Assembly (NCBI GenBank): GCA_002742885.1 | Contig: PDOO01000025.1 | Span: 1-64,000 of the forward strand | DNA from: Candidatus Cloacimonadota bacterium | Lineage (GTDB): Bacteria > Cloacimonadota > Cloacimonadia > Cloacimonadales > GCA-2742885 | Direction: 5' to 3' | Length of the DNA stretch: 64,000 nucleotides | Part shown: positions 3,182 through 27,000 of the stretch, piece after piece | Position numbering within the stretch: position 1 is the first letter of the stretch | Layout: each line of letters begins with the position of its first letter | Position numbers and translations under genes: made by a program | The notes under the pieces: generated by a model | What the model was told of the DNA's origin: nothing | Seen by the model: only the letters and a program-made list of their open reading frames with translations | Databases searched by the model: none

Positions 3182-3237
3182 AACAACTCCTTTTTTTGCG
3201 ATAAGCTCATTTTATCGTCATAAAATATTAAAGTCGG

Positions 3238-3268: not shown

Positions 3269-3269
3269 A

Positions 3270-3527: not shown

Positions 3528-3547
3528 TAGGTAAGCTTTTATGGTAA

Positions 3548-3594: not shown

Positions 3595-3629
3595 CAAATA
3601 TAACATATTTAACATTAAGGGGGAATCCT

Positions 3630-4525: not shown

Positions 4526-4567
4526 CGTCGAAAAAATAATTAAATCGTTTAGTTTTTATGTTTAACA

Positions 4568-4597
4568 ATGCTCGCATTATTATGCGGGCATTTTTTT
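4568..4597 (+). terminator. Rho-independent terminator of the orphan unit
   Basis: A 10-bp stem (ATGCTCGCAT with ATGCGGGCAT, one T-G pair) with a four-base loop is followed by TTTTTTT. It ends transcription before dnaE. Confidence 0.85.
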
Positions 4598-4712
4598 GTT
4601 ATCGGATAATTTTCCCGGTAATATGATTTTTAAAAACCCTTTGACAGAATGTACCGCAATTGTCCTCTTGCCGAAAAAAATAAAAATTTTCGGTTTTAAG
4701 AAGGGAAAATAT

Positions 4713-8177: not shown

Positions 8178-9237
8178 AATTATTGCTTTCATTTTAATCA
8201 TATCATCTCTTTTCCCCCTTTATTCGGCAGATATTGAACATGAAAAAACAGACTCCAGAGTATTATTGAACATTCTGTTTCCCATGAACGAAATAATTTC
8301 CGATAACTCCGTAAATAAGGAAATTAAGGTAAAAATAACTTCGGGGAAACAAGTAATTTACCAAAATAAAAAAAAAATCATATTTTCTGATGAAAATTTA
8401 GCCGAGATTATTAACTCATATTTGGTTTTTGACCTGAAAGGAGAACTTCCGGAAGGCGAATATACGATTTTAACCGAAATAAAAGATTTAGCTTCCCGCA
8501 AAAAGAAAAAAGAAATAAAAATCATCAAAATATCAGCTCCCCGAAAAACTTTATCCAAACCGAAAATAACATATTACAGAGATAATTTCAGCTTTACCGG
8601 TTGCGTCGGCGGAGAAAACTTCCGCATCGATTCTCTTAAAATTCAGCAATTATTTAATCCTCCTCCGTTAAAATTTGAAGTAAATGCAGACGGGGAGAAT
8701 TTATCTCTAAAACCCGGAAAAGAAATCAGATTTGTCCTAAATAAAAAATTTGATAAAATTCCTAATATCACATTCAATATCAACAATAAAACAGGACGCG
8801 CGGAAGAAATTGAAATCTTAAACTCAAAATATACAGACGAACAAAAACTGGAACAGCTGAAAAATGCTTTTCCGTCTAACGAAACAGAAATTCTGTATTA
8901 TGAAGGAGGAACTGCCCGGGAAAAAATAAATTTATTCTGGGAACTTAAATCAGGCGCGAACAATGAGATAAAAAGAGAAATAGAAAAAGAATTTGACGAA
9001 AAAGCATTATATGTCGACAAAAAATTTTCGATCAGAGGTTATAAAGCCGGCTGGAAAACGGATCGGGGCAAAGTATATCTCAGATACGGAGAACCGAGCG
9101 AAATTACAGAAAATACGCATCCTGCAACAGGTAAACCCTACATTATATGGTTTTATTATTCAGACGGGAAAAAATATATTTTTAAAGAAAAAAGCGGAGG
9201 CGGAGAATATGAATTATCGAACACTGATTTGGATTAG
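8167..9237 (+). CDS. Exported GWxTD-domain protein (short)
   Basis: A 356-residue protein with an N-terminal signal sequence (about residues 4-21, ending near PLYSADIE). It has a beta-rich middle and a C-terminal GWxTD domain (about 235-345) carrying GYKAGWKTDRGKVYLRYGEP. GWxTD domains (PF20094) occur in exported proteins of Ignavibacteria, Cloacimonadota, Marinimicrobia and relatives. Their function is not established. The start ATG lies inside the end of dnaE (11-base overlap) with only a weak ribosome-binding site, so translation may be coupled to dnaE. The next gene, a longer paralogue, overlaps its 3' end by 29 bases. No lipobox is present, so it is likely a periplasmic or outer-envelope protein. 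Confidence 0.8.
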   Translation: MQTEIIAFILIISSLFPLYSADIEHEKTDSRVLLNILFPMNEIISDNSVNKEIKVKITSGKQVIYQNKKKIIFSDENLAEIINSYLVFDLKGELPEGEYTILTEIKDLASRKKKKEIKIIKISAPRKTLSKPKITYYRDNFSFTGCVGGENFRIDSLKIQQLFNPPPLKFEVNADGENLSLKPGKEIRFVLNKKFDKIPNITFNINNKTGRAEEIEILNSKYTDEQKLEQLKNAFPSNETEILYYEGGTAREKINLFWELKSGANNEIKREIEKEFDEKALYVDKKFSIRGYKAGWKTDRGKVYLRYGEPSEITENTHPATGKPYIIWFYYSDGKKYIFKEKSGGGEYELSNTDLD

Positions 9238-10561
9238 TTTACTGATATTTGTTTCTTCTTTAAACTCAATAGGAATAAAAAGCGATTTTGAAGTAAAATT
9301 TGAACCGCAAAGATTCTTTACGGAAGAGGGCTATACTTTATTCGAAACATCCTACAAAATACCTTACAGTCAACTGGAATTTACAAGAATGGACTACGGT
9401 TATCAAGCCGACATAAAAACAGATAAATATTTATTGGTGAAAGGAGAATGGAGATTACTCGAAACTTTTACGGAACATGTCGTTACCAAAAACGAAGTTT
9501 GGACAAAAAGTTATGAAAAGTCCTATAAAGACATTGTAAGCTTAACCTTAAGCAAAGGAGAATACCGTTTAAAACTTATTATAACCGATATTAATTCCGG
9601 AAAATATGCCGAATTTGAGAAAGATCTTAACCTTTTGAATAAGGACGATATAATAAGCGATATTGAAATAAACGCTGTTTTTAAGCCGGACACGTCAAAC
9701 TATCTGAGACGTTTTCAGCGCAACGGCTTCCTTTTTGACCGAGCCTACGGACACATTATCCCCGCAAACTCCGACATAATATATTTTACATTCAATATCA
9801 ACCCCGATAAAAAAAACAATGATTTCATATATAACATTGAAGTAAAAAATAATAATCAAACCATAATAAGCGAAAATATTGAGGCAGAAAACCTAAACGA
9901 CCTCAGAATTATTTCCTTACCCGCAACAAACTTTAAATCGGGCGCATATACGGTCATACTTAACGTAACCGAAAAAGGTATTTTTGTGGTAAATTCGAAA
10001 AATTTCTTCTTTATCCAAGAGAAAAAAAATCATCGCCCCTATTTATTTACGGAAATAGAGGATGAAATAAAATTAATAAAATACCTTCTTAACAGCAAAG
10101 AAAAAAGAAAGTTAAACAGGCTCAGCAAAGAGGGGAAAGAAAATTATTTGGAAAATTTCTGGACAATAAACAACCCCGATCCTAATTCAGGTAAAAATGT
10201 TTTTTTTGAAGAAATAAAAGCAAGAAAAGATTATGCAAATAAATTTTATTCTCATTTCCAAAAAGGCTGGAAATCTGACAGGGGAAGAATTCTTATCAGG
10301 AACGGAAAACCTGACAGAGAACAGGATTTTGCAATGAGCGATGTAATAGGCGATTTCAAAATTTGGGAATATGATAACTTAAATTGCGTATATTTGTTTT
10401 ATGACAGAAATACATCAGGTAAATTTAAGCTTTACTATTCTTCAAATGATGAAATTAACCCAGGCAACCATAATTGGAAAAATATACTGGGACACGTAAA
10501 TTCTATTGACGAGTTGACGGAGAAAATGAAAGAAACAGGCTCCGCCATCACTCGTTATTAA
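9209..10561 (+). CDS. Exported GWxTD-domain protein (long)
   Basis: A 450-residue paralogue of the preceding protein. The start at 9209 is preferred over upstream in-frame codons because it follows a GGAGGCGGAG ribosome-binding site. It also begins a clear signal peptide (MNYRTLIWISLLIFVSSLNS). After a beta-sandwich-like region (about 30-290), the C-terminal GWxTD domain follows (about 310-430). Its motif reads GWKSDRGRILIRNGKPDREQ, with serine in place of the usual threonine, followed by IWEYDN and YLFYDRN strands. The reading frame overlaps the upstream gene by 29 bases and its 3' end overlaps the convergent yraN gene by 14 bases. Two tandem GWxTD proteins suggest a duplicated or heteromeric envelope component. 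The biochemical role is unknown. Confidence 0.82.
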   Translation: MNYRTLIWISLLIFVSSLNSIGIKSDFEVKFEPQRFFTEEGYTLFETSYKIPYSQLEFTRMDYGYQADIKTDKYLLVKGEWRLLETFTEHVVTKNEVWTKSYEKSYKDIVSLTLSKGEYRLKLIITDINSGKYAEFEKDLNLLNKDDIISDIEINAVFKPDTSNYLRRFQRNGFLFDRAYGHIIPANSDIIYFTFNINPDKKNNDFIYNIEVKNNNQTIISENIEAENLNDLRIISLPATNFKSGAYTVILNVTEKGIFVVNSKNFFFIQEKKNHRPYLFTEIEDEIKLIKYLLNSKEKRKLNRLSKEGKENYLENFWTINNPDPNSGKNVFFEEIKARKDYANKFYSHFQKGWKSDRGRILIRNGKPDREQDFAMSDVIGDFKIWEYDNLNCVYLFYDRNTSGKFKLYYSSNDEINPGNHNWKNILGHVNSIDELTEKMKETGSAITRY

Positions 10562-10983: not shown

Positions 10984-11919
10984 ATGAAACACTTAGCTGT
11001 TGTTTTTTTTCTAGTATTAAGTTCGGTGTTGCCGGCTGTCCCTTATACCTGCTTAGGCGGAATGACGGTTCCGACAGGTTACGTAATACCTTACAAAGCA
11101 GTTGAATTGGGATTTACAAATTACACTGCTCCGAACGTAGACAACGATTACAGTTATGACTTTGCTTTTTCAGTTAACGGCGGGGTGTATCACTGGGCAA
11201 ATATAGGCGTGGTTTACACGGGGAACAATGTTTTGTCGCTTAATTTAAAAGCAAGAATACTTGAACAAACCGATAAATATCCGGCTATATCAATAGGTGT
11301 GGACAACTTTTTTTCTAAACAAAAAGAAGACGGCGGCAACGAATATGAAGTAAGCGACCCGGATGACTACGCTCGGAATTCTTTCTACGTTGTCATATCT
11401 AAAACTGCTCTTTTAAGGGGCTTACCTTTTTTCGACCATCTTGAGACATACGCTCACTTCGGATTCGGAAGAGGAAGATTCTACGGAAATGTACCGAGAT
11501 CAAAAGCGCTGGGCGGTCTTTTTGGAGCTTTTGAACTGAGACCGAGCGATTATTATTCTTTTCTTGCCGAAATGGACGGTCATAACGTAAACTTAGGCAT
11601 AAACACTTATTACAAAGACTATACTTTCAGAATAGGTATTTACAGACTTGATGAATCTTATAAAAGAGATACTAAATTAGCTATTAACATAAACTATACA
11701 TTTGATAAATTTGTCTCTGACAAGTCTAAAAACACTGTTCGCAAATCAAGAATGAAATCAATGAAAAATTCACAGGTAATTATACAAGAAGGATTAGACG
11801 AACAAACTATTAAAGGCAATCCTCTTTTAAAAGAACTTCAAGAAATGCGAAGAGCTCGAGAAGAGACAGCCAAAGAATTAGAAGAAATTAAGAAATTTTT
11901 ACAAGAAGATGACGAATAA
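10984..11919 (+). CDS. Outer-membrane beta-barrel-like protein, first gene of the motor operon
   Basis: A 311-residue exported protein. The ATG at 10984 is preferred over the in-frame TTG at 10975 because GGAGG (10970-10974) lies 9 bases upstream of it. A signal peptide (about 1-19) is followed by repeated amphipathic beta strands rich in Gly, Tyr and Phe, such as YAHFGFGRGRFYGN, YTFRIGIYRL and AININYTF. This is typical of small outer-membrane barrels of the YjbH/porin-like kind. The last 55 residues form a charged alpha-helical tail (LLKELQEMRRAREETAKELE) predicted as a coiled coil, which is unusual for a barrel and could contact the periplasmic partners. It leads an operon of eight genes with tiny gaps (2-48 bases). 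In the Myxococcus Glt complex similar barrels (GltA/B/H) form the outer-membrane part. That parallel is an inference from gene context. Confidence 0.65.
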   Translation: MKHLAVVFFLVLSSVLPAVPYTCLGGMTVPTGYVIPYKAVELGFTNYTAPNVDNDYSYDFAFSVNGGVYHWANIGVVYTGNNVLSLNLKARILEQTDKYPAISIGVDNFFSKQKEDGGNEYEVSDPDDYARNSFYVVISKTALLRGLPFFDHLETYAHFGFGRGRFYGNVPRSKALGGLFGAFELRPSDYYSFLAEMDGHNVNLGINTYYKDYTFRIGIYRLDESYKRDTKLAININYTFDKFVSDKSKNTVRKSRMKSMKNSQVIIQEGLDEQTIKGNPLLKELQEMRRAREETAKELEEIKKFLQEDDE

Positions 11920-11921
11920 TT

Positions 11922-13937
11922 ATGAAAAAGCTTATCTTTATTCTTATTGCAATTTTTCTGTTAAACAGCTTATTCGGAGATCGGGAAACGGATCGTATGC
12001 TGTTAAGAGAAATACGTCAGGAAAAGAAACTTCTCCAAAAATATAAGGAGCAAATAGATCAATACAGAAAAATTTTGGCTCGAAAAGATGAAGTTTCCTT
12101 ATACGTGAAACAAAACGACACTGAAAACCTGAGAAGAATATTCAATGAGGACTTTCAGGCAGTTTATGATCTTATAAACGAAGGTCAGTATGCAAATGCC
12201 AGAAAAGCAATAAAGATTTATGCCAAAGTGTACAAGGATGCCGAGGATGTTGCCGACGACATTTTATATCTTAAAGCGATAACTTATTTTAAGGAAAGCC
12301 GTTTCGAAAAGGCAGCCGGGTATTTGACGAAGGCAATAAATAAGTATCAATACAGCAATTCATTCGCCAAATCATCCGAGATTCTTTCATTTATAATGCT
12401 TTCCGAAGGTTGGGATGAAGAAACAATAGAACTTTTCGAGAAACAAACGGATGCTAAGCTTCCGCACCGGTTAATTTTCAATGCAGCAAATGCTTATTAC
12501 AATACCGGACAATATGAAGAAGCCGGTAAATTGTGCAAAAAAATAGAGAGTGACAAGCATTTCTCTTTGAGAGTGAAAATACTTCAAATTCTTATTTCCA
12601 TGGATAAAAAATCTGACGCCAAGATAATAGCAGACTTGCAAGAAATAGAAGAAAATACCAATAAAAATGAGCCTTATTTTTATGTGGTTCAATTATTGAT
12701 TGCTCGTCTTTATTTTGCAAATAACGATGTGGAACATGCCTTGTTTTATTACAGCAAATTGTTCAGAGAAGAAAACGACGAAATAAGTCATGAAATTATT
12801 TATGAAGCAGCGGAAGTGTTTAAATCAGTAAAGAATTATGACAAAGCCGAAGTTCTTCTCAATAAAATAATACACGATCCTTATTCCAACGAACATTATT
12901 CTCCGGCAAAGTACTTGCTTTCAGTAATTTATCAGGAAAAAGGCAATCTCGAATTGGCGGATGCCAACATAAAAGAAGCGTTCGGAGAAATAGGCGAAGT
13001 ACTGCAAGGCTTGGCAACCAAAAAAAAAATGGTTAGAAAAATCGAATCATACATGGAAAAGCTCGAAAATGTCAATTCAGAAGAAGAAAGGAAGATTTTA
13101 GATAAAAAGATAAAAATTGCAGAAGACAAGAACAGAAAACTTTCAGATCTTTTAGCCTTAATGCAATCCGGTTTAAATACAAGTCAATTCATAAAAATGA
13201 GAGAAATTGACGAAGAATATCTGAAAATAAATGAGAAGATAGAAGAGTTAGATTTAAATATCAAAATTGTTTCAGCCACTTCAAACAAAGAAATTCCAGC
13301 CAAAATAGACAAAGAAATAGAACGTTTAAACCATGAAAAAACCGTTCTCAAAGTCATGGAATTTCTCGCCCCCATGGAAGATCAATACACATTGGAAGAT
13401 TACGCATTGGCAACCATGTTGGCAGAGGAACTTTTTAATACCGAAGATGCTATTAAGGCATGGAAAAATATTTTACATAAAAGCAAAAACGATCAACTTA
13501 CGGAAAAAGTAACTAAAATATTGGATCTTTTGGATAACAATATGGAGTCGCTTAATTCAATAGCCGATGTCGTATTCGGGAGTTCTTTGACAAAAGACTC
13601 GTCAAGGCTTGCTATCGCCTCAGAAATAGAAGACATAAAGAAAAGTCAAGAAGACCTTAAGATTTTGAAAAAAAATGTTCGCGAGAATTACAATAAAAAA
13701 TTAGTCCGTAAATACAAAAAGCAAAAGATAAGCTTAACGGGAAAAAATAAAAAAGTAAAAGAAAAATATGATGAATTAATTGCTGCTTTAGCAAAATCGG
13801 CAGAGCGCAACGAATCATTTTATAAATTAGCTCGCATTGAAATTATGACTCACGAACGCATACGTCGCGCAAAAGAATTTGAGAAAATGAAAAATCGTCA
13901 AAAAGAAGAACGCAAAAAATATATACAGGGGAAATAG
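11922..13937 (+). CDS. Exported TPR/coiled-coil protein, 671 residues
   Basis: An N-terminal signal peptide (MKKLIFILIAIFLLNSLFG) precedes a long, charged, almost purely helical protein. The first 50 residues after the signal look like a coiled coil. About residues 75-340 contain tetratricopeptide-like pairs of helices, for example FEKAAGYLTKAINKYQ, GQYEEAGKLCKKIE and KNYDKAEVLLNKI. The last third (about 365-465 and 560-671) is coiled coil, with a very basic end (RRAKEFEKMKNRQKEERKK). The start is 2 bases after the upstream stop and its own stop abuts the next ATG directly. It probably lies in the periplasm as a scaffold. In position it is comparable to the TPR proteins GltD/GltE of gliding complexes, but no family assignment can be made by eye. 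Confidence 0.75.
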   Translation: MKKLIFILIAIFLLNSLFGDRETDRMLLREIRQEKKLLQKYKEQIDQYRKILARKDEVSLYVKQNDTENLRRIFNEDFQAVYDLINEGQYANARKAIKIYAKVYKDAEDVADDILYLKAITYFKESRFEKAAGYLTKAINKYQYSNSFAKSSEILSFIMLSEGWDEETIELFEKQTDAKLPHRLIFNAANAYYNTGQYEEAGKLCKKIESDKHFSLRVKILQILISMDKKSDAKIIADLQEIEENTNKNEPYFYVVQLLIARLYFANNDVEHALFYYSKLFREENDEISHEIIYEAAEVFKSVKNYDKAEVLLNKIIHDPYSNEHYSPAKYLLSVIYQEKGNLELADANIKEAFGEIGEVLQGLATKKKMVRKIESYMEKLENVNSEEERKILDKKIKIAEDKNRKLSDLLALMQSGLNTSQFIKMREIDEEYLKINEKIEELDLNIKIVSATSNKEIPAKIDKEIERLNHEKTVLKVMEFLAPMEDQYTLEDYALATMLAEELFNTEDAIKAWKNILHKSKNDQLTEKVTKILDLLDNNMESLNSIADVVFGSSLTKDSSRLAIASEIEDIKKSQEDLKILKKNVRENYNKKLVRKYKKQKISLTGKNKKVKEKYDELIAALAKSAERNESFYKLARIEIMTHERIRRAKEFEKMKNRQKEERKKYIQGK

Positions 13938-16900
13938 ATGCAGAGAAAATATTCCGTTATTATCCTTTTTGTTCTGTTATTTTTTACTGCCTTAAAAGCC
14001 GAATTAACGCAAGAAGAGTTAAAAAGAACCTACTCTGAAAACAGAAAATTTAATATATCCATAGCAGAAGAGATAAAAAAATTTATTAAAGAAAATCCTG
14101 ATTCTGAAGAATTGCCTAAATTGTACTACAGTTTGGCAGAGTTGACTTCCGATATTTACGCTCAGGAAATAATGAGCAATTACAAATATAACTTTGAAAT
14201 TGCAAATTTATACAAAAAGGCAATTTCTCTTAACCCGAATTACGAAACGGCGGATGTTGCTTATTACAATATAGGATATTATACATTTCAAGGATTTAAA
14301 GTAAAAAGGGACCAAGGAAGAAATGCTCAATTTGACAAAGGAAATTACTTTATGGCATCCGATTGGCCTGATTCCTTAAGACTTATGAAAAAAGCGGTCA
14401 ATGAAGCAATAGAAAGTCTAGAAAAAGTTTCTTCTGATTATCCTGAGTCAGATTATCGCAGCGCAACTCTTTATTGGCTGGGCAATATTTATTTTAAACT
14501 TGCCATTGATGCCCCCGGGGATAAAGAAACCTTATATAAAAAAGCAATTCAATATTTTACGGATTTGACCAAAGAGAAGGCATATTCGGAAAGAATTAAC
14601 GGTCTTTACATGAGAGGCTGGACATTTTATGCTCTTAAAGATTATGACGGAGCAATTAATGATTTCTCTCAAATTTTAAAAGAACTGGAACAATCAAGCA
14701 ATAAAGAATTAAAAAATCAATTTGAAACAGAAACAATAGAGATGACGGCTCAAGGTCTTGTCGGAAAAGATGATATTGAATATGAAAAATATTCAAAGGC
14801 AGCTGCAGCAGCTTTGGAAACTTTTTCGGCTCTTGTCGATGAGAATTACGGAAAACAAATCATTAATGAAACGATTAATCTGAAGTTACAATTAAATGCA
14901 CCTATGCAAGCTTTGGATTTATACAACGCCTACCTCAAACTGTATCCGATTTCTATTGAAGCGCCTTCTTACAATGATTCGATTATAAGTATATTGAAAA
15001 GATCAAAAGGAAGAACAAGAAACAATAAAGACGTACGCAAACTTATAAGAAAAGAATATATGCGCATAGCAGATACATACCGCCCTGATTCATTGTGGTA
15101 TCAAACATTCAAAGACGAGAATATCGAATCTCAACTTAAACTGATAAGAGAAGCTTACGAAAAATATGCTTCAGTAAGCTTGTACAATGATTTCGTAAAA
15201 ACCGGCAATGAAGACTTATTAAGAGAGTTAACTCAATTATTAAAAGATTATGAAAAATTCAAGGAATTTTACGATGATAACGGCAAAGCATGGCTGGAAA
15301 ACCAAGAGAATATACTTGTAAACGCCTTTATAAATTCAGCTCAAAAAAACAAATCTGTACCATTATGGTTTAATGCGTTGCAGGAAATTGCCGAATACAA
15401 TGAAAAATATCCGAACAATAAAAACTATTTCAACAATGAGTTTAACGCTTTTCTCTGCACGGAAAACATTTATGAATTGGTAAGAGAAGATATTGAGGCA
15501 ATAAACTCCGGCGACAGTTTAAGAAAACCTGCCATGAGCGAACAGGAAGCGGATTCATTATACCTGACAGCAGCTGACAGATACGAAAAAATTCTTACAG
15601 ATGAGACATATACCGCAAAAAACAAAAAAGACGACTTAGTTAAAATAACTTATAAAAGAGCGGAAATTTATTTTAAATATGCCGACTATGATAGCTCTTA
15701 TCAACTCTTCGAGAATTTATTAGCATTGACTCCCGGAGAAAATATACAAAAAGTTGCCCTGACAAAATTGGCGGAAATAAGCAAAATACGCAAAAATTAT
15801 TTAGTTGCGGAAGACTTTTACAGAAGAGCGGGAGAATTTGCAAACACCCGAGAAAAAAATTTGTATAAAACGAATGCCATGGCTATGATTAAAGCAAACG
15901 CAGATTCATTGGAAATTGCCGGTTCAAATCATTTGGCAGCCGAAGAATATTTAAGATTGGCAAAAGAATACACAGATCAGGAAAAAATTATACCTTTAAA
16001 AGTAAAAGCGGTAAACAACTATAAAAACAGAAGCGAATATGACAAAGCTATTGAACAGATATTGGAAATAGCTCAAATGAAACCGCAAAAAACAGACAAA
16101 TTAGGTCTTTATCGTCAAGCTTGGGATATAGCTGATTCTTTGATGACCGAATATAAAAAAGGCGAAGAGCTCAGAAAAGAATTTATAAGTCTCTATCCTG
16201 CCTCAAACGAAGCTTTCAAAATAAGATCACAAATAATAAAATCTTATGACGGCGGAATATTTGATGACAAAGATAAAGCTGCCGAAATGTATCTTCAACT
16301 CCATAAAGACGTAAGAGAAAAGAAAATAGATAACGGAGATTTTCCGGAAGAACAAATATACCTTTTGGCGCTCAATATTTATCTTAATCAAGAAAAAGAA
16401 GAACAGGAAACAAAAGAAAATTCAGATAAAAAAGAACTTGCCGAAGAAGAAAATCAGACAAAAGATTCTAAAGAAAACTTAACTGTTCCCATGATGCTGG
16501 AATTTGAAAAAATGTATCCTAAGCATGAGAAATCTCTTGCATTCCTTAAAAAAGTCGCTTTGGGGTACAAGAAAAAAAACAACACGGCAAAATACAAAAA
16601 AATGGCTGCTTATATTTACAAAAAACATCCGGAACTTGATCTTGTTTCGACAATAGCAATAGAAGAATTGGCAGAAATATATGCAGAAGCCGATACATTG
16701 TATGAAACTAAAGACTATATCGGCATGAGAGAAAAAATAAAAGAATATAAAGCTCTTGAAGCGTCCTATGTTGCCGAAAAAATTAACAAAGAAAAAATCC
16801 ATAATAATGTTGTTTACGAAAACTTTGATATTTGGGAGGAAAATATCAAATACGAAAAGGATAAAGTCGCTTACATGGAAAAATATAATTCAACTCTCGA

Positions 16901-18479
16901 AAAAGTCGAGCGAGAATTCCTTGAAGTATCTTACAACAGCATATTTAAAGTTAATAACTTAACCAAAATCAAGCAACATTACGTCAAAAGGATTAAAGCT
17001 TTGAATAACCAACCGGATAAATACGGTAAAATGTTATTGGAACTTATTAAAGAAGGAAATAAATTCGAAATAACAACCGAACAAATAACCCGAGCTTTAT
17101 TTTTGAGGGCGGAATGTTATAAATACACAGCGGAAGCTTTAACGGCTCAAGCTCAAAAATTTGCAGAAATTTCAACCGAAATTAAACAAGTGGAAAAAAT
17201 CAGTATTATCAAAGCCAAAAACCTGAAAAAGCAATGTCTTAATATGGCTGCCCAAAAAAAGAAACAACTTGATAAAGCTTGGTTACAAGGTATTGCAACT
17301 ATCTATAAAAAGTTCATGAAAGATAAAGATTACGAAGATGAGTGGACTTTAGCGGCTAAAAATATATTGATAGAAAAAGGGATATTGAAAGATGAAATTT
17401 CACTAACATACGATTATTACGGCAAAATATTTATCAATAACCAAAAACCGAATCAATCCCTGAGCAAAACATTAAAAACTGATTCTTTATGGAGCAATCT
17501 GCCGACAAGAGAAACATTATCCGACAATAATTCTCTAAAAATAAAAGAAATTGATACAGACTATATAAGTTTTGTAAACATAAAAATAATACCGGAAACC
17601 ATTCCGTATAAAATAGAGGTTGATTATTATGCCAAAGAAGAAAAAAACTTCTTATTTAACGGAATGCCGGCAGATCGACAAGTCAGCGTCAAAGAGAACT
17701 TAACCATTGATTCTCTTTCTTTAACTCACTATAAATTCAGTTTAATTAAAGATTTCCTGCCGGAAAATGATTTGAGTTTCATCTTCAGAAGAGATACAAC
17801 AACTGTCGAAAAAGATTTATTTGATTGCAACATTTCAATAGTTTATATCAGAGAGAAATTAGAAGAGCACAGAGTGACCAGGAAAATGCATCTTAATACA
17901 GACAAAAGCTGGATGGTTAAGTTAAACGAAGAAATAAACCCTGATACAATAATTGAAATTGATTCATCTTGGACACTTGCCGATACTGCAGATTTTTCAG
18001 TCTTTAAATCTTCTTTTATCGGAATGGAAAACTCTCCTGCTGAAGTTATTTGGCACTCGCAAGAAGATACAAGTTCAGTTGATACAATCTGGTTGATTAA
18101 AAATATTTATATCCCGGAGAAATTTGTTTCCGGAGAAATGAAATTTATAGGTCAAAAAGAATTATCAGCTTGGATTAACGGAACGCCTATTATCGAGAAT
18201 TATAAGACGGAGTATGATGCGACGCTTATAAAATGGTTACCGAAAGTAATAAAACCGAATCCTTCTCTGTTTAGAAAAGGAGAGAATCAGATTCTTTTCA
18301 AAGTTAAAGACGACAGAGTTTACGGCGGTTTCATTATGGAATTTGATTATACGGAAAAGAAAAAGCAGGAAAATCAAGAAATTAATAAAAGCGTTCAGGA
18401 TAATCAGAACAGCGCAATAAAAAATCAAAATGAAGAAAATGACAAAGAAGAAGAAAAATCAAACTCGGGAAATGAATAG
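13938..18479 (+). CDS. Giant exported TPR protein, 1513 residues
   Basis: The ATG directly follows the previous stop. A signal peptide (about 1-20) precedes about 1050 residues of helical TPR-type repeats. Examples are LPKLYYSLAELTSDI, YRSATLYWLGNIYFKLA, GLYMRGWTFYALKDYDGAIN and VKITYKRAEIYFKYADYD. A low-complexity acidic/lysine insert sits near 815-850 (KEEQETKENSDKKELAEEEN). From about 1150 the composition changes to beta-rich, with Trp- and Ile-rich strands and a jelly-roll-like stretch ending WINGTPIIENYK. This suggests a C-terminal globular sandwich domain. The final 40 residues are a disordered K/E/N/Q tail. The protein is likely a periplasmic scaffold of the same complex as its neighbours. 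Large TPR proteins (AgmK/GltI) accompany TolQR-type motors in Myxococcus gliding, and the similarity here is architectural only. Confidence 0.75.
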   Translation: MQRKYSVIILFVLLFFTALKAELTQEELKRTYSENRKFNISIAEEIKKFIKENPDSEELPKLYYSLAELTSDIYAQEIMSNYKYNFEIANLYKKAISLNPNYETADVAYYNIGYYTFQGFKVKRDQGRNAQFDKGNYFMASDWPDSLRLMKKAVNEAIESLEKVSSDYPESDYRSATLYWLGNIYFKLAIDAPGDKETLYKKAIQYFTDLTKEKAYSERINGLYMRGWTFYALKDYDGAINDFSQILKELEQSSNKELKNQFETETIEMTAQGLVGKDDIEYEKYSKAAAAALETFSALVDENYGKQIINETINLKLQLNAPMQALDLYNAYLKLYPISIEAPSYNDSIISILKRSKGRTRNNKDVRKLIRKEYMRIADTYRPDSLWYQTFKDENIESQLKLIREAYEKYASVSLYNDFVKTGNEDLLRELTQLLKDYEKFKEFYDDNGKAWLENQENILVNAFINSAQKNKSVPLWFNALQEIAEYNEKYPNNKNYFNNEFNAFLCTENIYELVREDIEAINSGDSLRKPAMSEQEADSLYLTAADRYEKILTDETYTAKNKKDDLVKITYKRAEIYFKYADYDSSYQLFENLLALTPGENIQKVALTKLAEISKIRKNYLVAEDFYRRAGEFANTREKNLYKTNAMAMIKANADSLEIAGSNHLAAEEYLRLAKEYTDQEKIIPLKVKAVNNYKNRSEYDKAIEQILEIAQMKPQKTDKLGLYRQAWDIADSLMTEYKKGEELRKEFISLYPASNEAFKIRSQIIKSYDGGIFDDKDKAAEMYLQLHKDVREKKIDNGDFPEEQIYLLALNIYLNQEKEEQETKENSDKKELAEEENQTKDSKENLTVPMMLEFEKMYPKHEKSLAFLKKVALGYKKKNNTAKYKKMAAYIYKKHPELDLVSTIAIEELAEIYAEADTLYETKDYIGMREKIKEYKALEASYVAEKINKEKIHNNVVYENFDIWEENIKYEKDKVAYMEKYNSTLEKVEREFLEVSYNSIFKVNNLTKIKQHYVKRIKALNNQPDKYGKMLLELIKEGNKFEITTEQITRALFLRAECYKYTAEALTAQAQKFAEISTEIKQVEKISIIKAKNLKKQCLNMAAQKKKQLDKAWLQGIATIYKKFMKDKDYEDEWTLAAKNILIEKGILKDEISLTYDYYGKIFINNQKPNQSLSKTLKTDSLWSNLPTRETLSDNNSLKIKEIDTDYISFVNIKIIPETIPYKIEVDYYAKEEKNFLFNGMPADRQVSVKENLTIDSLSLTHYKFSLIKDFLPENDLSFIFRRDTTTVEKDLFDCNISIVYIREKLEEHRVTRKMHLNTDKSWMVKLNEEINPDTIIEIDSSWTLADTADFSVFKSSFIGMENSPAEVIWHSQEDTSSVDTIWLIKNIYIPEKFVSGEMKFIGQKELSAWINGTPIIENYKTEYDATLIKWLPKVIKPNPSLFRKGENQILFKVKDDRVYGGFIMEFDYTEKKKQENQEINKSVQDNQNSAIKNQNEENDKEEEKSNSGNE

Positions 18480-18527
18480 ATAAAAAACTCCCGAAGAAGA
18501 CAATGAAAAAGAAGCAGAGGCAAAAAA

Positions 18528-18818
18528 ATGAGAACTAAAATCTTACTTTTCATAATAATCATTATCGTTTTTACAATGCTGGAAGCGGAAAATAAGAAAA
18601 AATCAATCAAAAGCAATAAGAAAAAAGCAAAAAAATATATTGAGTTTGTAGATAAAGACGAAGGCGACGAAGAGCAAGCATCTGTTTTAAAAAAGCCTTC
18701 TGAAATTCAAACTGCCATAAGCAGAAAAAATAAATTTTCAGCTTATCAATACAGTCAAAACAAAAGAGCGAAAATAATAAAAACAAATCGCTTATTGTAT
18801 AAAAAAATGGAGGATTAA
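18528..18818 (+). CDS. Small basic exported protein of the motor operon
   Basis: A 96-residue protein with a hydrophobic N-terminus (about residues 4-18, IIIIIVFT core). A highly lysine-rich segment (about 22-40) follows, then an acidic patch (KDEGDEEQ) and a basic tail. It has a plausible ribosome-binding site (AGAGG, 8 bases upstream) and lies in the operon between the giant TPR gene and the TolQ-like gene, with a 4-base gap to the latter. It has no recognised family. The N-terminus could be a signal peptide or a single membrane anchor. It may link the stator proteins to the periplasmic TPR proteins, but nothing in the sequence proves that. Confidence 0.6.
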   Translation: MRTKILLFIIIIIVFTMLEAENKKKSIKSNKKKAKKYIEFVDKDEGDEEQASVLKKPSEIQTAISRKNKFSAYQYSQNKRAKIIKTNRLLYKKMED

Positions 18819-18822
18819 GATT

Positions 18823-19572
18823 ATGATTTCTTTAAAAAAATGGCTTTCTGTAAGTGTAAGTTTAGCAACAGGATCAATATTATTTGCAGAAGAGGCTGCT
18901 TCCTATTCCGGAAAAGTAAGCATTGTAAAAATGTATAATGAAGGCGGTGAATTTATGCCCATCATTGCCGGATTGGGAGTTATCGTTATTCTTATGGCAA
19001 TAGTTAAAACTTTCAGACTTTCCATAAAAGAAAAGTTTGATGCCAAAAACTTTTATTTAAAACTTAAAGGGTACATCAAAAACCAACAATATGACGAAGT
19101 TCAAAAAATATGCTCTAATTTTAAAGACAAGACTTTGGGATTTATTTTCTGGAACGGCTTTATTACTTTTAATGATGCCAGAAAATCAGGAATCAAAGGC
19201 AAAGAATTAAAAGAAGTTTTGGAAAATGCTTTTGAAGAAGCAGCTATGCAAAAAATTCCTGAAATCGAAGCAGGTCTTTTCTGGTTTGACGTTTTCGGGC
19301 AAGTCGCAACTCTTATGGGACTTCTGGGAACAATTTTCGGTTTGGTTCAGTCTTTCGATGCTTTGGGTAATGCGCCCGAATCAGAAAAATCAAAACTTTT
19401 GACAAGCGGTATTTCAACAGCTATGGGTACTACAGCTTTCGGTCTCGTAGTTGCGATACCTACGATGTTTATTAAAGGCGGATTACAGGTAAAAGCTAAA
19501 AAAATCGTTAATCAAGTTGACGAATACAGCGTTAAGATGATTAATCAGGTATCTAATTCATTGGGAGAATAA
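18823..19572 (+). CDS. MotA/TolQ/ExbB-family stator protein
   Basis: A 249-residue inner-membrane protein of the MotA/TolQ/ExbB proton-channel family (PF01618). There is an extra N-terminal hydrophobic segment (about 5-22), then the first core helix (about 45-62, FMPIIAGLGVIVILMAIVK). A cytoplasmic helical domain of about 100 residues follows. The two conserved channel helices come next: ATLMGLLGTIFGLVQSF, then GISTAMGTTAFGLVVAIPTM. The conserved Thr/Ser residues of these helices are present. It would form a pentameric stator around a TolR/ExbD dimer and use proton flow to do mechanical work across the envelope. It is directly followed by two TolR/ExbD-like genes (3 and 8 bases away). No TolA, TolB or Pal is nearby, so this is not a classical Tol-Pal cluster. 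Confidence 0.9.
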   Translation: MISLKKWLSVSVSLATGSILFAEEAASYSGKVSIVKMYNEGGEFMPIIAGLGVIVILMAIVKTFRLSIKEKFDAKNFYLKLKGYIKNQQYDEVQKICSNFKDKTLGFIFWNGFITFNDARKSGIKGKELKEVLENAFEEAAMQKIPEIEAGLFWFDVFGQVATLMGLLGTIFGLVQSFDALGNAPESEKSKLLTSGISTAMGTTAFGLVVAIPTMFIKGGLQVKAKKIVNQVDEYSVKMINQVSNSLGE

Positions 19573-19575
19573 ATT

Positions 19576-20109
19576 ATGGCTCGTGTTGCACCCTCGCAAA
19601 AAAGGAGAGGGAATTTTAGCGAATCCAAAGAGCTTAATTTGATTCCTATTATGAACCTCTTTATAGTGGTTTTACCCATGCTTTTAACAATTTATGTCTC
19701 AGTAAAGATGACTATGTTGGAAATAGCATTATCAGCCGGAGGCGCTTCCGCTTCCAATGAAAAAATAACGGAAAAACCGCCGAAAAAAATAACATTGGGT
19801 TTATTTGAAAGCGGATTTGAAATAAAAGTAGGAGAAGACTCAAAAAAGAAAAAAGCTCCCGTTATTAAAATACCGGCTAAAGATATGTCTCAAACGACAG
19901 CAAATCTTCATTATGATTTCATAAAACTTGACGAAGAGCTTGAAAAGTTAAAAAAAGAACACAAAAATCAATCGACAATATCAGTAATACCTTCAGATAA
20001 TCTGAAGTTTGAAGCTTTGACAACAGCCATTGACGTATGTAAAATGAATAATTTTACAGACATTAATTATACGCCGATGCAGAAAAAATACTTTGGGCGT
20101 ACCAGGTAG
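19576..20109 (+). CDS. TolR/ExbD-like protein lacking the channel aspartate
   Basis: A 177-residue protein with the TolR/ExbD layout: short basic cytoplasmic N-terminus, one membrane helix (about 23-44), then a periplasmic alpha/beta domain. The segment ELNLIPIMNLFIVVLPML aligns with the family motif NxxPLxDVLLVLLIxF, but the invariant proton-carrying aspartate is replaced by asparagine (codon AAC in IMNLF). The periplasmic domain is preceded by a lysine/proline linker (EKPPKKITLG). It lies between the TolQ-like gene and a second TolR-like gene that keeps the aspartate, so the stator may contain one active and one inactive TolR subunit. Myxococcus also pairs two TolR homologues (AglQ, AglS) with one TolQ homologue (AglR). 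Confidence 0.85.
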   Translation: MARVAPSQKRRGNFSESKELNLIPIMNLFIVVLPMLLTIYVSVKMTMLEIALSAGGASASNEKITEKPPKKITLGLFESGFEIKVGEDSKKKKAPVIKIPAKDMSQTTANLHYDFIKLDEELEKLKKEHKNQSTISVIPSDNLKFEALTTAIDVCKMNNFTDINYTPMQKKYFGRTR

Positions 20110-20117
20110 GAGTGGTT

Positions 20118-20612
20118 ATGGTAAGAAAAAGCAGAATTACTCCGCAAAATAAAGAACTGAATATCACATCATTGATTGATATTTTAACGATATTACTTGT
20201 TTTCATGATTAAAAATGTTTCTATGGATGCTCAAAAATTGATTATTCCTGAAGGAATGGATATTCCTAAAACTTACACAAAAGAACAAGTACTTGAAAAA
20301 GGTAATGTTGTTCTTGTAAAATTATATGAAAACCAAATATTGGTAGGAAGCGACAGTCAATTTGCGGGAACTCCAGAAGACTTCATAAAAAGAGAGAAGA
20401 CAAGAAAAGTACTGCTTAAATTATTGGAATCGGAAGCTGATGTTATTAAAGCAAACAATTCAGAAGCCATCCCTTGTCTTATGATACAAGCAGACAAAAA
20501 TGTAAAATGCAAGTACCTTACACAGCTTATTTTGGCAGGTGCAAAGGCTTCTTTTTCGAATATTTATCTATCTTCAACAGAAGCCGGCAAGGCTGAAGTG
20601 TTGGGAATTTAA
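20118..20612 (+). CDS. TolR/ExbD-like protein with intact channel aspartate
   Basis: A 164-residue TolR/ExbD-family protein. ATG 20118 is preferred over the in-frame GTG at 20112, because TAGGAG ends 5 bases before it. The membrane helix reads LNITSLIDILTILLVFMI, with the conserved aspartate at the expected place, so proton translocation is plausible. The periplasmic part (about 45-164) contains an ExbD-like beta-alpha-beta pattern ending with IQADKNVKCKYLTQLIL, where ExbD/TolR proteins usually have a DxxxxYxxVxxVM-type helix. A proline-poor linker follows the membrane helix. With the two preceding genes it forms a TolQ-TolR-TolR stator set, and it lies 12 bases upstream of the AgmX-like gene. 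Confidence 0.88.
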   Translation: MVRKSRITPQNKELNITSLIDILTILLVFMIKNVSMDAQKLIIPEGMDIPKTYTKEQVLEKGNVVLVKLYENQILVGSDSQFAGTPEDFIKREKTRKVLLKLLESEADVIKANNSEAIPCLMIQADKNVKCKYLTQLILAGAKASFSNIYLSSTEAGKAEVLGI

Positions 20613-20624
20613 AAGGGGGATTTA

Positions 20625-22079
20625 ATGGCAAATAAATTATTGGATATGACCCTCTTTTATAAAGGGAAAAGGCTAAACTTTGCCAGAGAAGGTCGTGAAA
20701 TTAAATCTAAATTTATTATCGGATCAAATATTAATTTGTTTTGGGAAATTTTAGATTCAAAATTCCCCGATAAATTTGAATTTCTCACCAAAAAAGGCAA
20801 CAGATATATAATAAATCTTCATTCTTCAATGTCATTTGAAGTTGAAGAAAACAATCTTGTATTATCGCCGGAAGAATTAAAAATGAAAAAAATTCTTTCC
20901 GGTAATTCTATAATTTTAAACGAAAAGATATCCGGAACGGTCAGTTTTTCGGAACACTACAAAATTTCCTTCCGCTATAAAAAACCTTATTTGCGACCTA
21001 TTTCGGCAGCCGATAAAGAACTTATCAGAAAATACAAAAGAAGGCAAGAATATCGTAAAGGAGCCGTAGGAGAGTTTATATTTATTTTCGGCGGTTTAAC
21101 GACGTTCATGATAATTTTATTTTACCTGATGTCTCAATACGAACCGCCTGTCGAAGAAAATATTTTGCAACAGAAAATTGCAAGAGCGAAAGAATCGGTT
21201 CAAAAAATTCAGTTTGAAGAGCAAAAAGAGACTCCCGAGAAGAAAAAAGAACAAAAGATAAATACAGCCAATATTACCCAAAAAAAACCTGAATCCCAAA
21301 AAGAACTGAAAAAAATAGTTAAAGAAGCCAATAAACAGGCAGAGAAAAGAATTCAGGATATTATCGGTGATTTGGATCTGGGAGATTTCGGAGGAGCGGG
21401 AGACGTTGACCTTAATGCCGATACCGATTTCGGAGCAGAAATATTAGAAGCAAATGTTTCGGCTGAAATTGTTGTATCGGGATCTCGCGGAGGTAAAAAA
21501 AGAAAAGTTAATAAAGCGGCTGTTGCCGATTTTAACACTTCAGCGGTTAAATCCTCAGGTGACTTATTGGAAGATACCGGCAGTTTAAGCAATCTTGTCG
21601 GAGATGCCGATCTCGGCGATATAGGAGATCTGGGATTAGGCGAGATGGATTTATCTGATCTCGGAGGAGTAGAAGATATTAAAACCAAAGAGATAAGCGG
21701 AAGCGTTGAATTTGCCAAGGTAAAAGCAAGTTACGCTGCCCTTGCAATGGTTTCCGAAGAAGAAATAGATCTTACATCCATGAGTCAAGAAGATCAAAAT
21801 CAGTTTGCTTCCATAAAAAATCAGGTAGCTACTTACAGATCCCGTTTAGTCAGTCTTTACAGTCAAGAATCTCTGATTGTAGATATGGGCGGTTATTTAA
21901 ATATTACTCTTTACATATCAGGAAGCGGTAAAGTGGAAGGAGTTGATATTGAAAGAGTTTCGGGTTCCAATTTTACCGATGATTTTATAAATAAGTGTCG
22001 TAAGCTTATTATGAAATGGAAGTTCGGGGTAAAAAAAGCCTCAAAATATCAATTCAGACAAAAACTTCAAAATATATAA
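20625..22079 (+). CDS. AgmX/TonB-like trans-envelope protein
   Basis: A 484-residue protein of unusual layout. A cytoplasmic, beta-rich N-terminal domain (1-120, possibly FHA-like) is followed by a basic stretch (KYKRRQEYRK) and one membrane helix (about 146-167). A long periplasmic linker rich in Lys, Glu and Gln (170-245) comes next, then an Asp/Gly-rich segment (DLDLGDFGGAGDVDLNADTD, repeated again near 325-350). The last 90 residues resemble the AgmX/PglI C-terminal domain, which is TonB_C-like. Conserved elements include GGYLNITLYISGSGKVEGVD and a terminal Cys-Arg-Lys helix ending WKFG. Such proteins transmit force from TolQR-type stators to outer-membrane partners, as TonB or GltG/GltJ do. 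Its ribosome-binding site is AAAGGGGG. It is the last gene of the operon, and a strong terminator starts 7 bases after the stop. Confidence 0.75.
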   Translation: MANKLLDMTLFYKGKRLNFAREGREIKSKFIIGSNINLFWEILDSKFPDKFEFLTKKGNRYIINLHSSMSFEVEENNLVLSPEELKMKKILSGNSIILNEKISGTVSFSEHYKISFRYKKPYLRPISAADKELIRKYKRRQEYRKGAVGEFIFIFGGLTTFMIILFYLMSQYEPPVEENILQQKIARAKESVQKIQFEEQKETPEKKKEQKINTANITQKKPESQKELKKIVKEANKQAEKRIQDIIGDLDLGDFGGAGDVDLNADTDFGAEILEANVSAEIVVSGSRGGKKRKVNKAAVADFNTSAVKSSGDLLEDTGSLSNLVGDADLGDIGDLGLGEMDLSDLGGVEDIKTKEISGSVEFAKVKASYAALAMVSEEEIDLTSMSQEDQNQFASIKNQVATYRSRLVSLYSQESLIVDMGGYLNITLYISGSGKVEGVDIERVSGSNFTDDFINKCRKLIMKWKFGVKKASKYQFRQKLQNI

Positions 22080-22085: not shown

Positions 22086-22109
22086 AAGCCCCTTCGGGGG
22101 CTTTTTTTT
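22086..22109 (+). terminator. Rho-independent terminator of the motor operon
   Basis: A 7-bp GC-rich stem (AAGCCCC with GGGGCTT) around a short loop is followed by eight T. It begins 7 bases after the stop of the AgmX-like gene. Confidence 0.9.
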
Positions 22110-24036: not shown

Positions 24037-27000
24037 ATGTCAAAATCAAAAAAATCCTCCGAAAATATTCCTGCCGTATCTCAAGGCGAAATAATAAACG
24101 AGCGTTATCTGATCAAAAAAAAATTGGGCGCAGGTTCTTTCGGAGCAGTTTATCTTGCGCAGGATTTGAAACTTGATGTTGAGAAAGCAATAAAAATCTT
24201 CGGTTACAACGAAAATACGGAAAGCATGATTTCCGAATTAAGAAAAGAAGCCAGACATCAGGCAAAAATAAGACATCCCAACATAATTCATCTCAATGAC
24301 TTTGACGCTTCAGGCAAATATCTCCTATTGGACATGGATTATATCGAGGGAGTAACTCTTGCCGAAAAGTTAAAAAAGAAAATACCGCAAATCGATAAAT
24401 ACGAATATTCTTTGCAAATTGCTTCGGCTTTGGAAGCTGCTCACGAGAAAAACATAATTCATCACGATATTAAACCTTCCAATATCATGATTAACAGACA
24501 AAATACGGCAAATTTAACAGATTTCGGGATATCGGAAGTTACTGATTATCATAACAATAAAAAAAGCGCTTCCGGTTCTCGCCCTTACATCGCGCCGGAA
24601 AAAATCAGAGGCCAAAGATCTTCTTTTCGATCCGACATTTTCTCTTACGGAGTTCTGCTTTATGAATTATATTACGGGAAACGTCCGTTTAAACCGGATA
24701 AAAAAGGCATTCCTGATTATAAAATACCGAAGAATATAATTAAAAGCCGGAGACCTTTGGATAAACTCATAAAAGAATGCCTGAATCAATATCCTGATTT
24801 ACGACCTCAATCTTTCAGAGAAATTACGGAAAGACTGAAAAAAATAAAAAATGAAGCAACCAAAGGAAAAGTAAAAATAATCAGAGAGTATATAGAGAAA
24901 AAAATCAGAGTCAGAGACATGGACTTTGAAACGAAAAGAGATATTGCTCTTTTATTTTTACTGATGATTTTACTGGTTATTGCAGGACCTTACTATCTCA
25001 AAGCGATGGATACCTTGCTGAAATCCGGAAAAAACACCATAATAGATTTCCCTTCCTCAGCCGGTTTCGTTAACGGAGAGTACAAAGGAGTTACTCCCAT
25101 TAATGCCCGTTTGGAAGAAAATGATTATTTTCAAGCCGTAAATCCCGTAAACGGTTTTAAACTGGACGGACTTTATCAAGGCGGCAATTATCTTCGTTTC
25201 AGAAAAGAAGGAAACAAAATTTACCTCAACAACAAACTTTACGGGCAAATGGTAAATTCCGGAAAAGATTTGCCTGTCGATCCGGAAATAACATTTTTAT
25301 ATACCGATACAGATATTCCGATTCAGCAATTGAGAAGCATAAAAACATCGCATCCGCTAATATCTCTCGGCGAAAATTTCCCTGCTAAGTCATTGTATAA
25401 ATTGCCGATGAAAACAAAATTCTTACGCATTGCAAATCCTGATTTTCATGATTTAAGAAAAATATTCTTTTTAAAAGATTTGATAGGTCTGGATATTTCC
25501 GAAAAAAATAAAATAAATTTATCTTACATTAAATTTTTCAAAAAACTGCAACATTTAAACATTGCAGATTCAAACAAGGATAATCTTGATTCAATTTACG
25601 AACTCAAAGAATTACGTTCCCTTAATTGTTCTCACAATAAACTTTCTTCTCTTGCAGGAATAGAAAAACTTACCAATCTGAAAAGTATTAACCTTGATGA
25701 TAATTTCGATCTTAATTCTTTGCAAAATTTAAAAAATTCGGATAAATTGGAGTTTGCTTCCCTGGATAAACTTCCCCTTATTTCTGATGAAGATAAAAAT
25801 ATATTGAGACATCATCTGAGAAATAACAGAAAAAAAGCTGATGAAATCGGTAAAAAAAGAATTATTCCTCAAGGATTTATATTCCAAAAAATTATCGTTT
25901 TTCTTGTTTTTGCCGTATTTATCCTCATCCTTATTATTCTTATCGGATTATTGGGAAAAATGAACTTCAAAAATAATCAGGCAAAATCAAACAAAAGATC
26001 AGAAGAAGAAAAAACTTACAAAGAAGAGATTGAAGATATAAAAAAACTGATTATTGCAAACCGACTGGTAAAACCGGAAAAACACAATGCTCTCCAAAAA
26101 ATAACCGATTTGCTGAAAAAAGATCCTGACAACGAAAATCTTAATCAGGAAAATAAAAATATCTTAAAAAAAATAAATGAAAAAATAAAAACTCATCAAA
26201 AGCGAGGAGAAACAGAACCGGTTTATTTATTGTCAAATGCGGCAAGAAATATCCAACCAGATCCGGGATTAAACTCGATTGCCTTAAAAAGTTTAAAGAA
26301 ACTTGTTTCAAAATCAGAAGAAAATTTCGTTCTGATCAAAGGCGGTTCTTTTGAAATGGGAGATTTTACGGAAAAAGGTCAAAACAGCGCAAAACCGGTT
26401 CACAGGGTAAATTTAAACGATTTTTATCTCAGCGACACAGTCGTTACAAACGGACAATTTTGCGAATTTCTCAATAAATTCGGCAACATTAAAGATCAAG
26501 GAGTCTATGCCGTAAATATCGGCAGTCCGTATTGTCAGATCCGTTACGAAAAAGGTAAATATTTCCCGAAAGAACCATATCACGATTTTCCTGTAATCGA
26601 AGTAAGCTGGTTCGGAGCAATGCGTTATTGTCGCTGGAGAGACGGAAGACTTCCTACGGAAGCAGAGTGGGAATATGCGGCAAGAAACAGAGGCGAAAAG
26701 ATAATATTTTCAACAGGCAACAAAAATTCTCTGAAAAAAAGCAATTTTTTGATAGATAAAAACGATGATCGCTGGCATTCTTCGGTTGCGGTAAAAACCT
26801 ATAAACCGAATAAGTTGGGAATTTATCAAATGAGCGGAAACGTTTTGGAATGGTGTTTAGATTATTTCGATCCCGCCTTTTACGGAAAAGGCATCATCGA
26901 TAATCCGTACGGTCCGAAATCAGGGATGACAAGAACAGTCAGAGGCGGCGGCTGGTGTTTTCATTTGGACAGAACCGCAACTTTTTATCGAGGATCGGCG

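Follow-up and report, generated by a model that had tools for sequence, protein, structure and literature searches.

The Agl/Glt core complex is known in Myxococcota, Bdellovibrionota, Gammaproteobacteria and Fibrobacter (Luciano et al., 2011, PMC3169522; PMC3858216). In the passages cited here, its genes are described as insufficient for motility (Luciano et al., 2011, PMC3169522), and the Agl-Nfs variant is reported to transport spore-coat polysaccharide (PMC3858216). In Myxococcus the two TolR-type proteins AglQ and AglS each carry an Asp, a status which we take from a review rather than from sequences, and the same review treats the choice between homo- and heterodimers as unsettled (PMC9389320). 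Substitution of this residue in AglQ (D28N) is reported to abolish proton conductance and to paralyse gliding (PMC3858216). Here we describe an operon of eight + strand genes at positions 10984-22079 of a 64,000-nucleotide stretch from a Candidatus Cloacimonadota bacterium (GenBank assembly GCA_002742885.1, contig PDOO01000025.1, positions 1 to 64,000; hereafter the window). Its products are a putative barrel, two exported tetratricopeptide repeat (TPR) proteins, a small exported protein, a TolQ, two TolR proteins (TolR1 and TolR2) and an AgmX-like transducer. The operon very probably encodes a force transducer of the Agl/Glt core type, and we think it fairly likely that this machine is proton-driven, spans the envelope and has one charged subunit per rotor pair.

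At the site where the proton-binding Asp is expected, TolR1 of the window carries Asn and its membrane stretch holds no acidic residue, whereas TolR2 retains the Asp within an ordinary ExbD-like membrane motif. When the residue was taken from a profile column across 137 clusters, TolR1 was non-acidic in 131/137 and TolR2 had Asp in 134/134. The pattern of two Asp-bearing TolR proteins stated for Agl/Glt (PMC9389320) is not what we find: TolR1 has Asn in all Cloacimonadota copies (68/68, window included). It also has Asn in both Calditrichota clusters (2/2, from one genome) and in 32/52 Fibrobacterota copies, with Gly in the other 20/52; a second Cloacimonadota copy (L216) has Gly as well. The six copies grouped with locus L150 have Ser (three), Asn (two) and Cys (one); this group, titled Deltaproteobacteria and placed in Myxococcota by the tree tool, matched the TolR1 profile in 5/49 genomes, none identifiable as Myxococcus. 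Bacteriovoracaceae (two genomes) have Asp in 6/8 clusters and Ser in 2/8, and the trees are compatible with either loss or regain of the TolR1 Asp within the clade. As a control, picked and read by eye, ExbD-like proteins encoded next to the other TolQ/ExbB genes in these genomes have Asp in 18/18 cases, and four ordinary pairs (L005, L197, L199 and L200) have it in both ExbD partners.

These loci come from two kinds of search. When named genomes were scanned with a TolQ profile, 78 loci were kept, of which 70 were counted as Cloacimonadota by title; three of the 70 are titled Tenebribacter or Syntrophosphaera, which we take to belong to this phylum. Because TolQ was the query for these 78 loci (70 Cloacimonadota and eight others), the TolR1 residue at them was unselected. 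For the further loci of Fibrobacterota, Bacteriovoracaceae, Calditrichota and the L150 group the query was the TolR1 profile itself, and this could bias the set towards non-acidic copies, although Asp copies were also found in this way. Duplicate loci (L180, L181, L185 and L186) were dropped from the residue count, and three Cloacimonadota loci have neither TolR while three have TolR1 only.

The Asn/Asp split is observed; that the two proteins form a mixed pair in the pore is, in our judgement, somewhat more probable than a different arrangement. A bolder proposal is that single-carboxylate rotary motors are widespread, with an obligate TolR1-TolR2 heterodimer as rotor in which only TolR2 takes up a proton and the TolR1 helix bears load; we hold this tentatively, at slightly under an even chance. 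If true, it would span all the Cloacimonadota, Fibrobacterota and Calditrichota copies read, and perhaps most of the Agl/Glt-type clade outside the gliders, and one turn would use half the proton-binding events of ExbBD, TolQR or MotAB. The non-acidic TolR1 also bears on the homo- or heterodimer question raised for AglQ and AglS (PMC9389320), and one of the Cloacimonadota partners carries the type of change, Asp to Asn, that D28N represents in AglQ (PMC3858216).

The eight genes form the one-strand run described in the first-pass annotation of this DNA, with all open reading frames (ORFs) in place, separated by gaps of 2, 0, 48, 4, 3, 2 and 12 bases. The features of the operon are as follows.

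10984..11919, + strand: putative outer-membrane barrel protein, 311 amino acids (aa), with a signal-like N-terminus and a charged, coiled-coil-like C-terminal tail
11922..13937, + strand: exported TPR protein, 671 aa, in a GltC-like position (TPR_19, 1.7e-11, Pfam)
13938..18479, + strand: exported large protein, 1513 aa, in a GltD-like position (weak TPR signal, Pfam)
18528..18818, + strand: small basic exported protein, 96 aa (isoelectric point 9.9, N-terminal hydrophobic stretch)
18823..19572, + strand: TolQ/ExbB/AglR-type proton-channel protein, 249 aa (PF01618, MotA_ExbB, 4.9e-25)
19576..20109, + strand: TolR1, ExbD/TolR-type (PF02472, 8.7e-9), with Asn27 (codon 19654-19656) where the proton-binding Asp is expected
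20112..20612, + strand: TolR2, ExbD/TolR-type (PF02472, 1.6e-11), with Asp23 retained (codon 20178-20180)
20625..22079, + strand: AgmX/GltG-like predicted force transducer (NF033768, E 0.0015)
22086..22103, + strand: intrinsic terminator-like hairpin and T run, 6 bases past the last stop codon

Each of the first four products has one N-terminal hydrophobic, signal-like stretch, TolQ has three hydrophobic stretches, and TolR1, TolR2 and the AgmX-like protein have one each. The earlier proposal of a trans-envelope motor operon driven by the proton motive force is supported. The operon is taken to end at the AgmX-like gene because an ABC-F-like gene (named from sequence) lies downstream in the window and priA lies downstream in L038, the only relative tested. 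The hairpin has a stem of 7 pairs, 5 of them G-C, and since 12 terminator-like sites were found in the 12-kb region against 7.4 expected by chance, the argument for a terminator rests on its position and tail. Two genes with GWxTD domains (PF20094) lie at 8167-9237 and 8993-10561 of the window, between dnaE and the operon, and at 24037-27054 the window encodes a 1005-aa protein in which a Ser/Thr kinase and an FGE-sulfatase-type domain are fused with a leucine-rich repeat match that falls below cut-off. The window belongs to a genome (G000) of 2.17 Mb in 53 contigs.

The block is conserved far beyond chance, because 43 of the 70 TolQ-found Cloacimonadota loci show the complete order barrel, TPR, TPR, TolQ, TolR1, TolR2, AgmX and none shows another (27/70 partial, 0/70 contradictory); the conserved synteny that the first-pass annotation asked for is therefore present. 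The small gene was unlabelled in this count, the 27 partial loci were not individually checked for contig ends, and two of the loci (L079 and L113) miss a label through ORF picking. One locus (L128) has two barrel genes in tandem. The AgmX-like profile matched 87/124 genomes of the phylum at E<=1e-5, with a single nearly full-length match in 74/124 (read from the match list), and a small ORF lies at the place of the small exported gene in 58 Cloacimonadota relatives; the dozen displayed share a C-terminal KSNKLLY-like motif. Upstream, dnaE, one or two GWxTD genes and yraN (on the opposite strand) are found in 12 of the 15 relatives readable there, and the set is missing at L038, L054 and L065.

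Outside the phylum, TolQ, TolR1 and TolR2 occur together at each of the eight other loci found through TolQ, which belong to Chitinivibrionales (two), Fibrobacter, Fibrobacterota, Caldithrix, Bacteriovoracaceae (two) and one genome titled Deltaproteobacteria. The Caldithrix locus (L154, Calditrichota) has eight genes in the order of the window, its barrel match being weak (E 8e-3). In the Fibrobacterota group the TolR1 profile matched 76/80 genomes at E<=1e-5, often several times per genome and partly over the N-terminal half only. Variants are seen among these loci: L171 (8934-10217), L174, L175 and L227 encode a TolQ-TolR1 fusion of about 427-438 aa adjoining a second TolQ, a polysaccharide-linked Fibrobacter copy (L151, 11155-11481) has a STAS-domain (anti-sigma antagonist-like) gene between TolR1 and TolR2, and in L147 and L152 this place is taken by an ORF of similar size.

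The kinship of the motor with Agl/Glt-type motors, proposed at first pass, is borne out by the TolQ trees. TolQ of the window and TolQ of Bacteriovoracaceae Glt clusters lie on one side of a branch, apart from the other family members compared, with support of 100/100 in a first tree (60 rows), and the same grouping has support of 100/99 in a second (60 rows, 44 versus 16), where TolQ of the Caldithrix locus is sister to Cloacimonadota TolQ (86/90). The trees, rooted at midpoint only, compare cluster TolQ with other PF01618 MotA/TolQ/ExbB-family proteins of the same genomes that can be found by the TolQ profile. These other rows carry no individual assignment to Tol, Ton or Mot. PF01618 matches were used only where their locus had been retrieved, and five of the 23 other loci (L001, L191, L195, L204 and L208) were left out for lack of a TolQ-profile match at E<=1e-3. 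One stray row of the other class (L216) fell inside the cluster clade of the first tree with a branch length of 3.2; the second tree was built after taking out L216, the L203 rows and every row of >=300 aa and bringing in six further rows. Position 163 of TolQ is Thr in 38/38 cluster rows and Pro in 17/18 other rows, the exception being L216, and Thr163, Thr170, Thr203 and Thr204 are invariant in 22 sequences. L216 itself lies on contig C4 of a Cloacimonadota genome (G003), where it forms a second, divergent TolQ-TolR-TolR set whose TolQ branch is very long. The Bacteriovoracaceae locus L149 is a recognisable Glt cluster by its OMP_myx_plus match (5e-22, above cut-off), with further matches below cut-off to the GltC (2e-31) and GltG (7e-25) models, and GltC-model matches are found at all four clusters of its genome.

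Judged from profiles and trees, the kinship is real for the motor and distant or unproven for the remaining parts. The AgmX-like protein has an N-domain, one transmembrane (TM) stretch at about 151-169, a low-complexity linker and a TonB/AgmX-like C-domain at about 396-476; the AgmX/PglI C-terminal domain (NCBIfam NF033768) is matched at 18.6 bits against a cut-off of 40. Among 62 aligned transducers, four from other phyla, NF033768 is matched by 51 and the GltG model by 5 (both at E<=0.01), and a profile of 23 AgmX-like C-domains finds TonB chains in PDB (E 0.0036). Inspection of the TM stretch of the window protein by eye revealed no SxHxLxS motor-binding motif of the TolA/TonB kind. In profile-profile comparisons of single pairs, whose scores are indicative only, the transducer reached 95.4 against GltG-like transducers, 98.2 against those of Fibrobacterota and 97.7 against those of Calditrichota. 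Outside the phylum the transducers of L151 and L154 match the GltG model below cut-off (6e-27 and 7e-25). The 1513-aa protein scored 95.0 with GltD-like, 2.0 with GltC-like and 3.8 with GltE-like sets, to which its TPR repeats may contribute, and 99.1 with the Calditrichota gene; its Pfam TPR matches are all below cut-off (best 6.5e-5), and tblastn gave zero matches for it in plasmids. The 671-aa TPR protein appears less specific in its Glt matches, with 89.5 for GltC-like, 75.5 for GltD-like and 43.7 for GltE-like sets. The two TPR genes are fused (about 1940-2140 aa) in family f11 and in genome G001. Pfam and NCBIfam name no family for the barrel protein (best Pfam E 0.039), and the putative call rests on the appearance of the sequence and on 16 aligned relatives, C-terminal tail included.

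A number of results weigh against the Agl/Glt-type reading. TolR1 is absent from three Cloacimonadota genomes that are 98-100% complete (G008, G009 and G033). The putative barrel shows no profile-profile similarity to the Bacteriovoracaceae outer-membrane protein (3.4) and scores 9.2 with its Calditrichota counterpart, and comparison of the small protein with its presumed counterparts gave 30.1 for Fibrobacterota and 8.9 for Calditrichota. TPR scores can stem from repeats alone and do not always track gene position. At locus L184 the first TPR protein is the positional counterpart of the 671-aa protein but reaches 43.9 with it, against 95.1 for the second; this first protein gives 3.3 with the 1513-aa protein, and the transducer scores only 58.3 with its L184 counterpart. 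The GltC (NF033756) and GltG (NF033760) models left these genes unmatched in 4/4 Cloacimonadota genomes, the AgmX-like gene of the window included for GltG, and the sole GltG-model match in the window genome is the TonB on contig C10. An FHA domain, as expected at the N-terminus of GltG, looked suggestive by eye in the AgmX-like N-domain, but profile comparison gave no support (probability 10.8; reversed decoy 0.8) and it is not claimed. The first-pass statement that each class of gene has a Glt counterpart thus goes too far with regard to a GltE-like gene, to the barrel and to the GltC and GltG models.

Gene content and the Asn/Asp split apart, we infer every step of the following mechanism. 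Five TolQ would surround a TolR pair in the inner membrane, as in known 5:2 motors, and this pair would most likely consist of one TolR1 and one TolR2, leaving the proton-binding Asp on one rotor helix only. The AgmX-like protein would dock on the motor through its single TM helix and pull with its TonB-like C-domain, the TPR proteins would act as a scaffold or span the periplasm, and the putative barrel with its coiled-coil-like tail would form the outer-membrane end. The C-domain may take hold of the small basic exported protein. The load would be the movement of a surface or outer-membrane complex, as in polysaccharide or adhesin handling, rather than whole-cell gliding.

A different arrangement of the same motor would place a TolR2 homodimer alone in the TolQ pore, with the usual two Asp, and TolR1 outside it as an accessory protein (a peptidoglycan anchor, plug or regulator). 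The missing acidic residue in 131 of the clusters is what would be expected of a protein that is never in the pore, and the ordinary motif of TolR2 suits this arrangement too; yet the TolR1 membrane helix is conserved, with P24, M26, N27, F29 and P34 invariant around the site in 22 sequences, and most Bacteriovoracaceae clusters keep the Asp. Conserved helix and retained Asp together point to a helix working in the pore, and we consider an accessory TolR1 rather unlikely, if worth keeping in mind. The operon might instead be the Tol-Pal substitute of the phylum, stabilising the outer membrane during division. TolB_N is absent in 8/8 Cloacimonadota genomes (it is present in 3/14 controls, Escherichia coli included), and the dnaE, GWxTD and yraN genes upstream in most readable relatives would suit such a role; but the three nearly complete genomes without TolR1 are among those eight and so lack TolB_N as well. 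We rate this substitute role as unlikely because these genomes manage without either. In agreement with the first-pass annotation, TolA, TolB and Pal genes are absent from the operon (Pfam, NCBIfam), and no OmpA/Pal gene is found in it by the same models, OmpA-type proteins elsewhere in the genome not having been surveyed.

The match of the C-domain profile to TonB chains could also be read as the mark of a TonB-like energiser that serves one outer-membrane channel of its own, the receptor being encoded by the barrel gene, and one Fibrobacterota motor copy (L168) does adjoin a TonB-dependent receptor. The barrel protein, however, has no plug or receptor domain and the operon no TonB receptor (both Pfam), and to our knowledge large TPR proteins have no role in Ton systems. 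The window genome also has a separate TonB system: Plug domains of TonB-dependent receptors occur at four places, and C10 carries consecutive genes for a receptor, ExbB, two ExbD and TonB (order read in L062). Since the ExbB of this set (L005) lies outside the clade of the window TolQ, the operon is not the standard TonB-ExbBD system whose discovery would have overturned the first-pass proposal, and we regard the energiser reading as quite improbable. A gliding machine like that of Myxococcus is very improbable. It would accord with a motor clade common to Glt clusters; against it, the core genes are reported to be insufficient for motility (PMC3169522), Group A parts are not recognised in the operon, TolR1 lacks the Asp stated for both AglQ and AglS (PMC9389320), and the window genome has a flagellar cluster on contig C7 (L058) with FliM, MotB and FlbD. 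The suggestion of motility is accordingly not indicated by these data. No GldL or GldM model, the type IX secretion motor, appears among the Pfam and NCBIfam matches, where TolQ and ExbD families are found instead.

Surface polymer or adhesin handling remains our leading but tentative guess for the load of the proposed transducer, which would move surface complexes or put them under tension, because of neighbouring genes in Fibrobacterota and a cellulose-linked block in Fibrobacter succinogenes. Downstream of the L151 copy lie genes for polysaccharide export (SLBB, Wzz and glycosyltransferase), and SecA and an S41 protease are neighbours of the L171 copy. In F. succinogenes S85 the block comprises FSU_2396 (OmpA), FSU_2397 and FSU_2398 (TPR), FSU_2400 (TolQ), FSU_2401 and FSU_2402 (ExbD) and FSU_2403 (TonB) (PMC6851124, PMC4619616), with protein sizes given in PMC4619616 and no description of FSU_2399 in the passages cited. 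The OmpA, TPR, TolQ, both ExbD and TonB-like proteins were more abundant on cellulose, and the TonB/ExbB/ExbD part was interpreted by the authors as cellodextrin transport (PMC6851124); cellulases or vesicle proteins have been reported as complex partners of FSU_2396 and FSU_2397 (PMC6851124, PMC8092306). Locus L249 of the Fibrobacterota group, with products of 511, 746, 206, 298, 164 and 334 aa (the second TPR position was missed by ORF picking), is presumably this operon. Two points tell against the guess: L249 is equated with the F. succinogenes operon from order and sizes, not from the strain sequence, and loads can differ, as the L168 copy (2338-8538, Asn/Asp TolR) adjoins a TonB-dependent receptor that has its own N-terminal TonB_C domain. 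ORFs of similar size lie near the motor copy at L170, L172 and L173.

As far as titles and abstracts of the open-access literature show, no paper treats Cloacimonadota together with Tol, Agl, gliding or type IX secretion, and none treats TolR/ExbD partners with an absent Asp. Within that scope the Cloacimonadota and Calditrichota members, the eight-gene layout and the fixed non-acidic TolR1 appear to be new. The first-pass annotation had placed the system outside its known host range. This is not so for the wider FCB group, as one Fibrobacteres member was published in 2011 (Luciano et al., 2011, PMC3169522), but Cloacimonadota and Calditrichota do extend the range of the Agl/Glt-type motor, as judged from the TolQ trees. 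The genes of this envelope motor are stably kept together across Cloacimonadota, one Calditrichota genome has the same eight-gene layout, and this spread suggests a kind of machine more than a deltaproteobacterial speciality with a few transfers.

Set beside known systems, the operon shares with Tol-Pal a motor driven by the proton motive force and a TonB/TolA-like transducer, but differs in having no Pal gene, in the lack of TolB_N in its phylum (0/8 genomes) and in its TolQ, which scores 73.9 bits against a TolQ cut-off of 221. The vWA-TPR-TolQ-TolR-TolR systems of the Planctomycetes-Verrucomicrobia-Chlamydiae group, as described in the cited part of PMC12204202, have a vWA protein as transducer where the window has an AgmX/TonB-like one. 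From Agl/Glt the operon differs in the Asn of TolR1, in its own barrel family and small protein, in leaving the GltC and GltG models unmatched, in the fusion of the TPR genes in some relatives, and in having no third, GltE-like TPR gene (ORF list, Pfam; the genome beyond the operon was not searched for GltE). The machine would thus be like the Glt core with its motor in the Glt clade, full membership not being established. With the F. succinogenes FSU_2396-FSU_2403 block it shares the order OmpA, TPR, TPR, TolQ, ExbD, ExbD, TonB-like (PMC6851124, PMC4619616), the barrel taking the place of OmpA. L249, the presumed counterpart of that block, has a non-acidic TolR1 like the window, but also an OmpA and beta-helix outer-membrane gene, a 298-aa TolR1 with Gly at the site and a shorter transducer. 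With the Agl/Glt (and Nfs) core the operon has in common an AglR-type TolQ clade, two TolR genes beside TolQ, a transducer with a TonB/AgmX-like C-domain, large exported TPR proteins and a single genomic cluster, as reported for core complexes outside Deltaproteobacteria.

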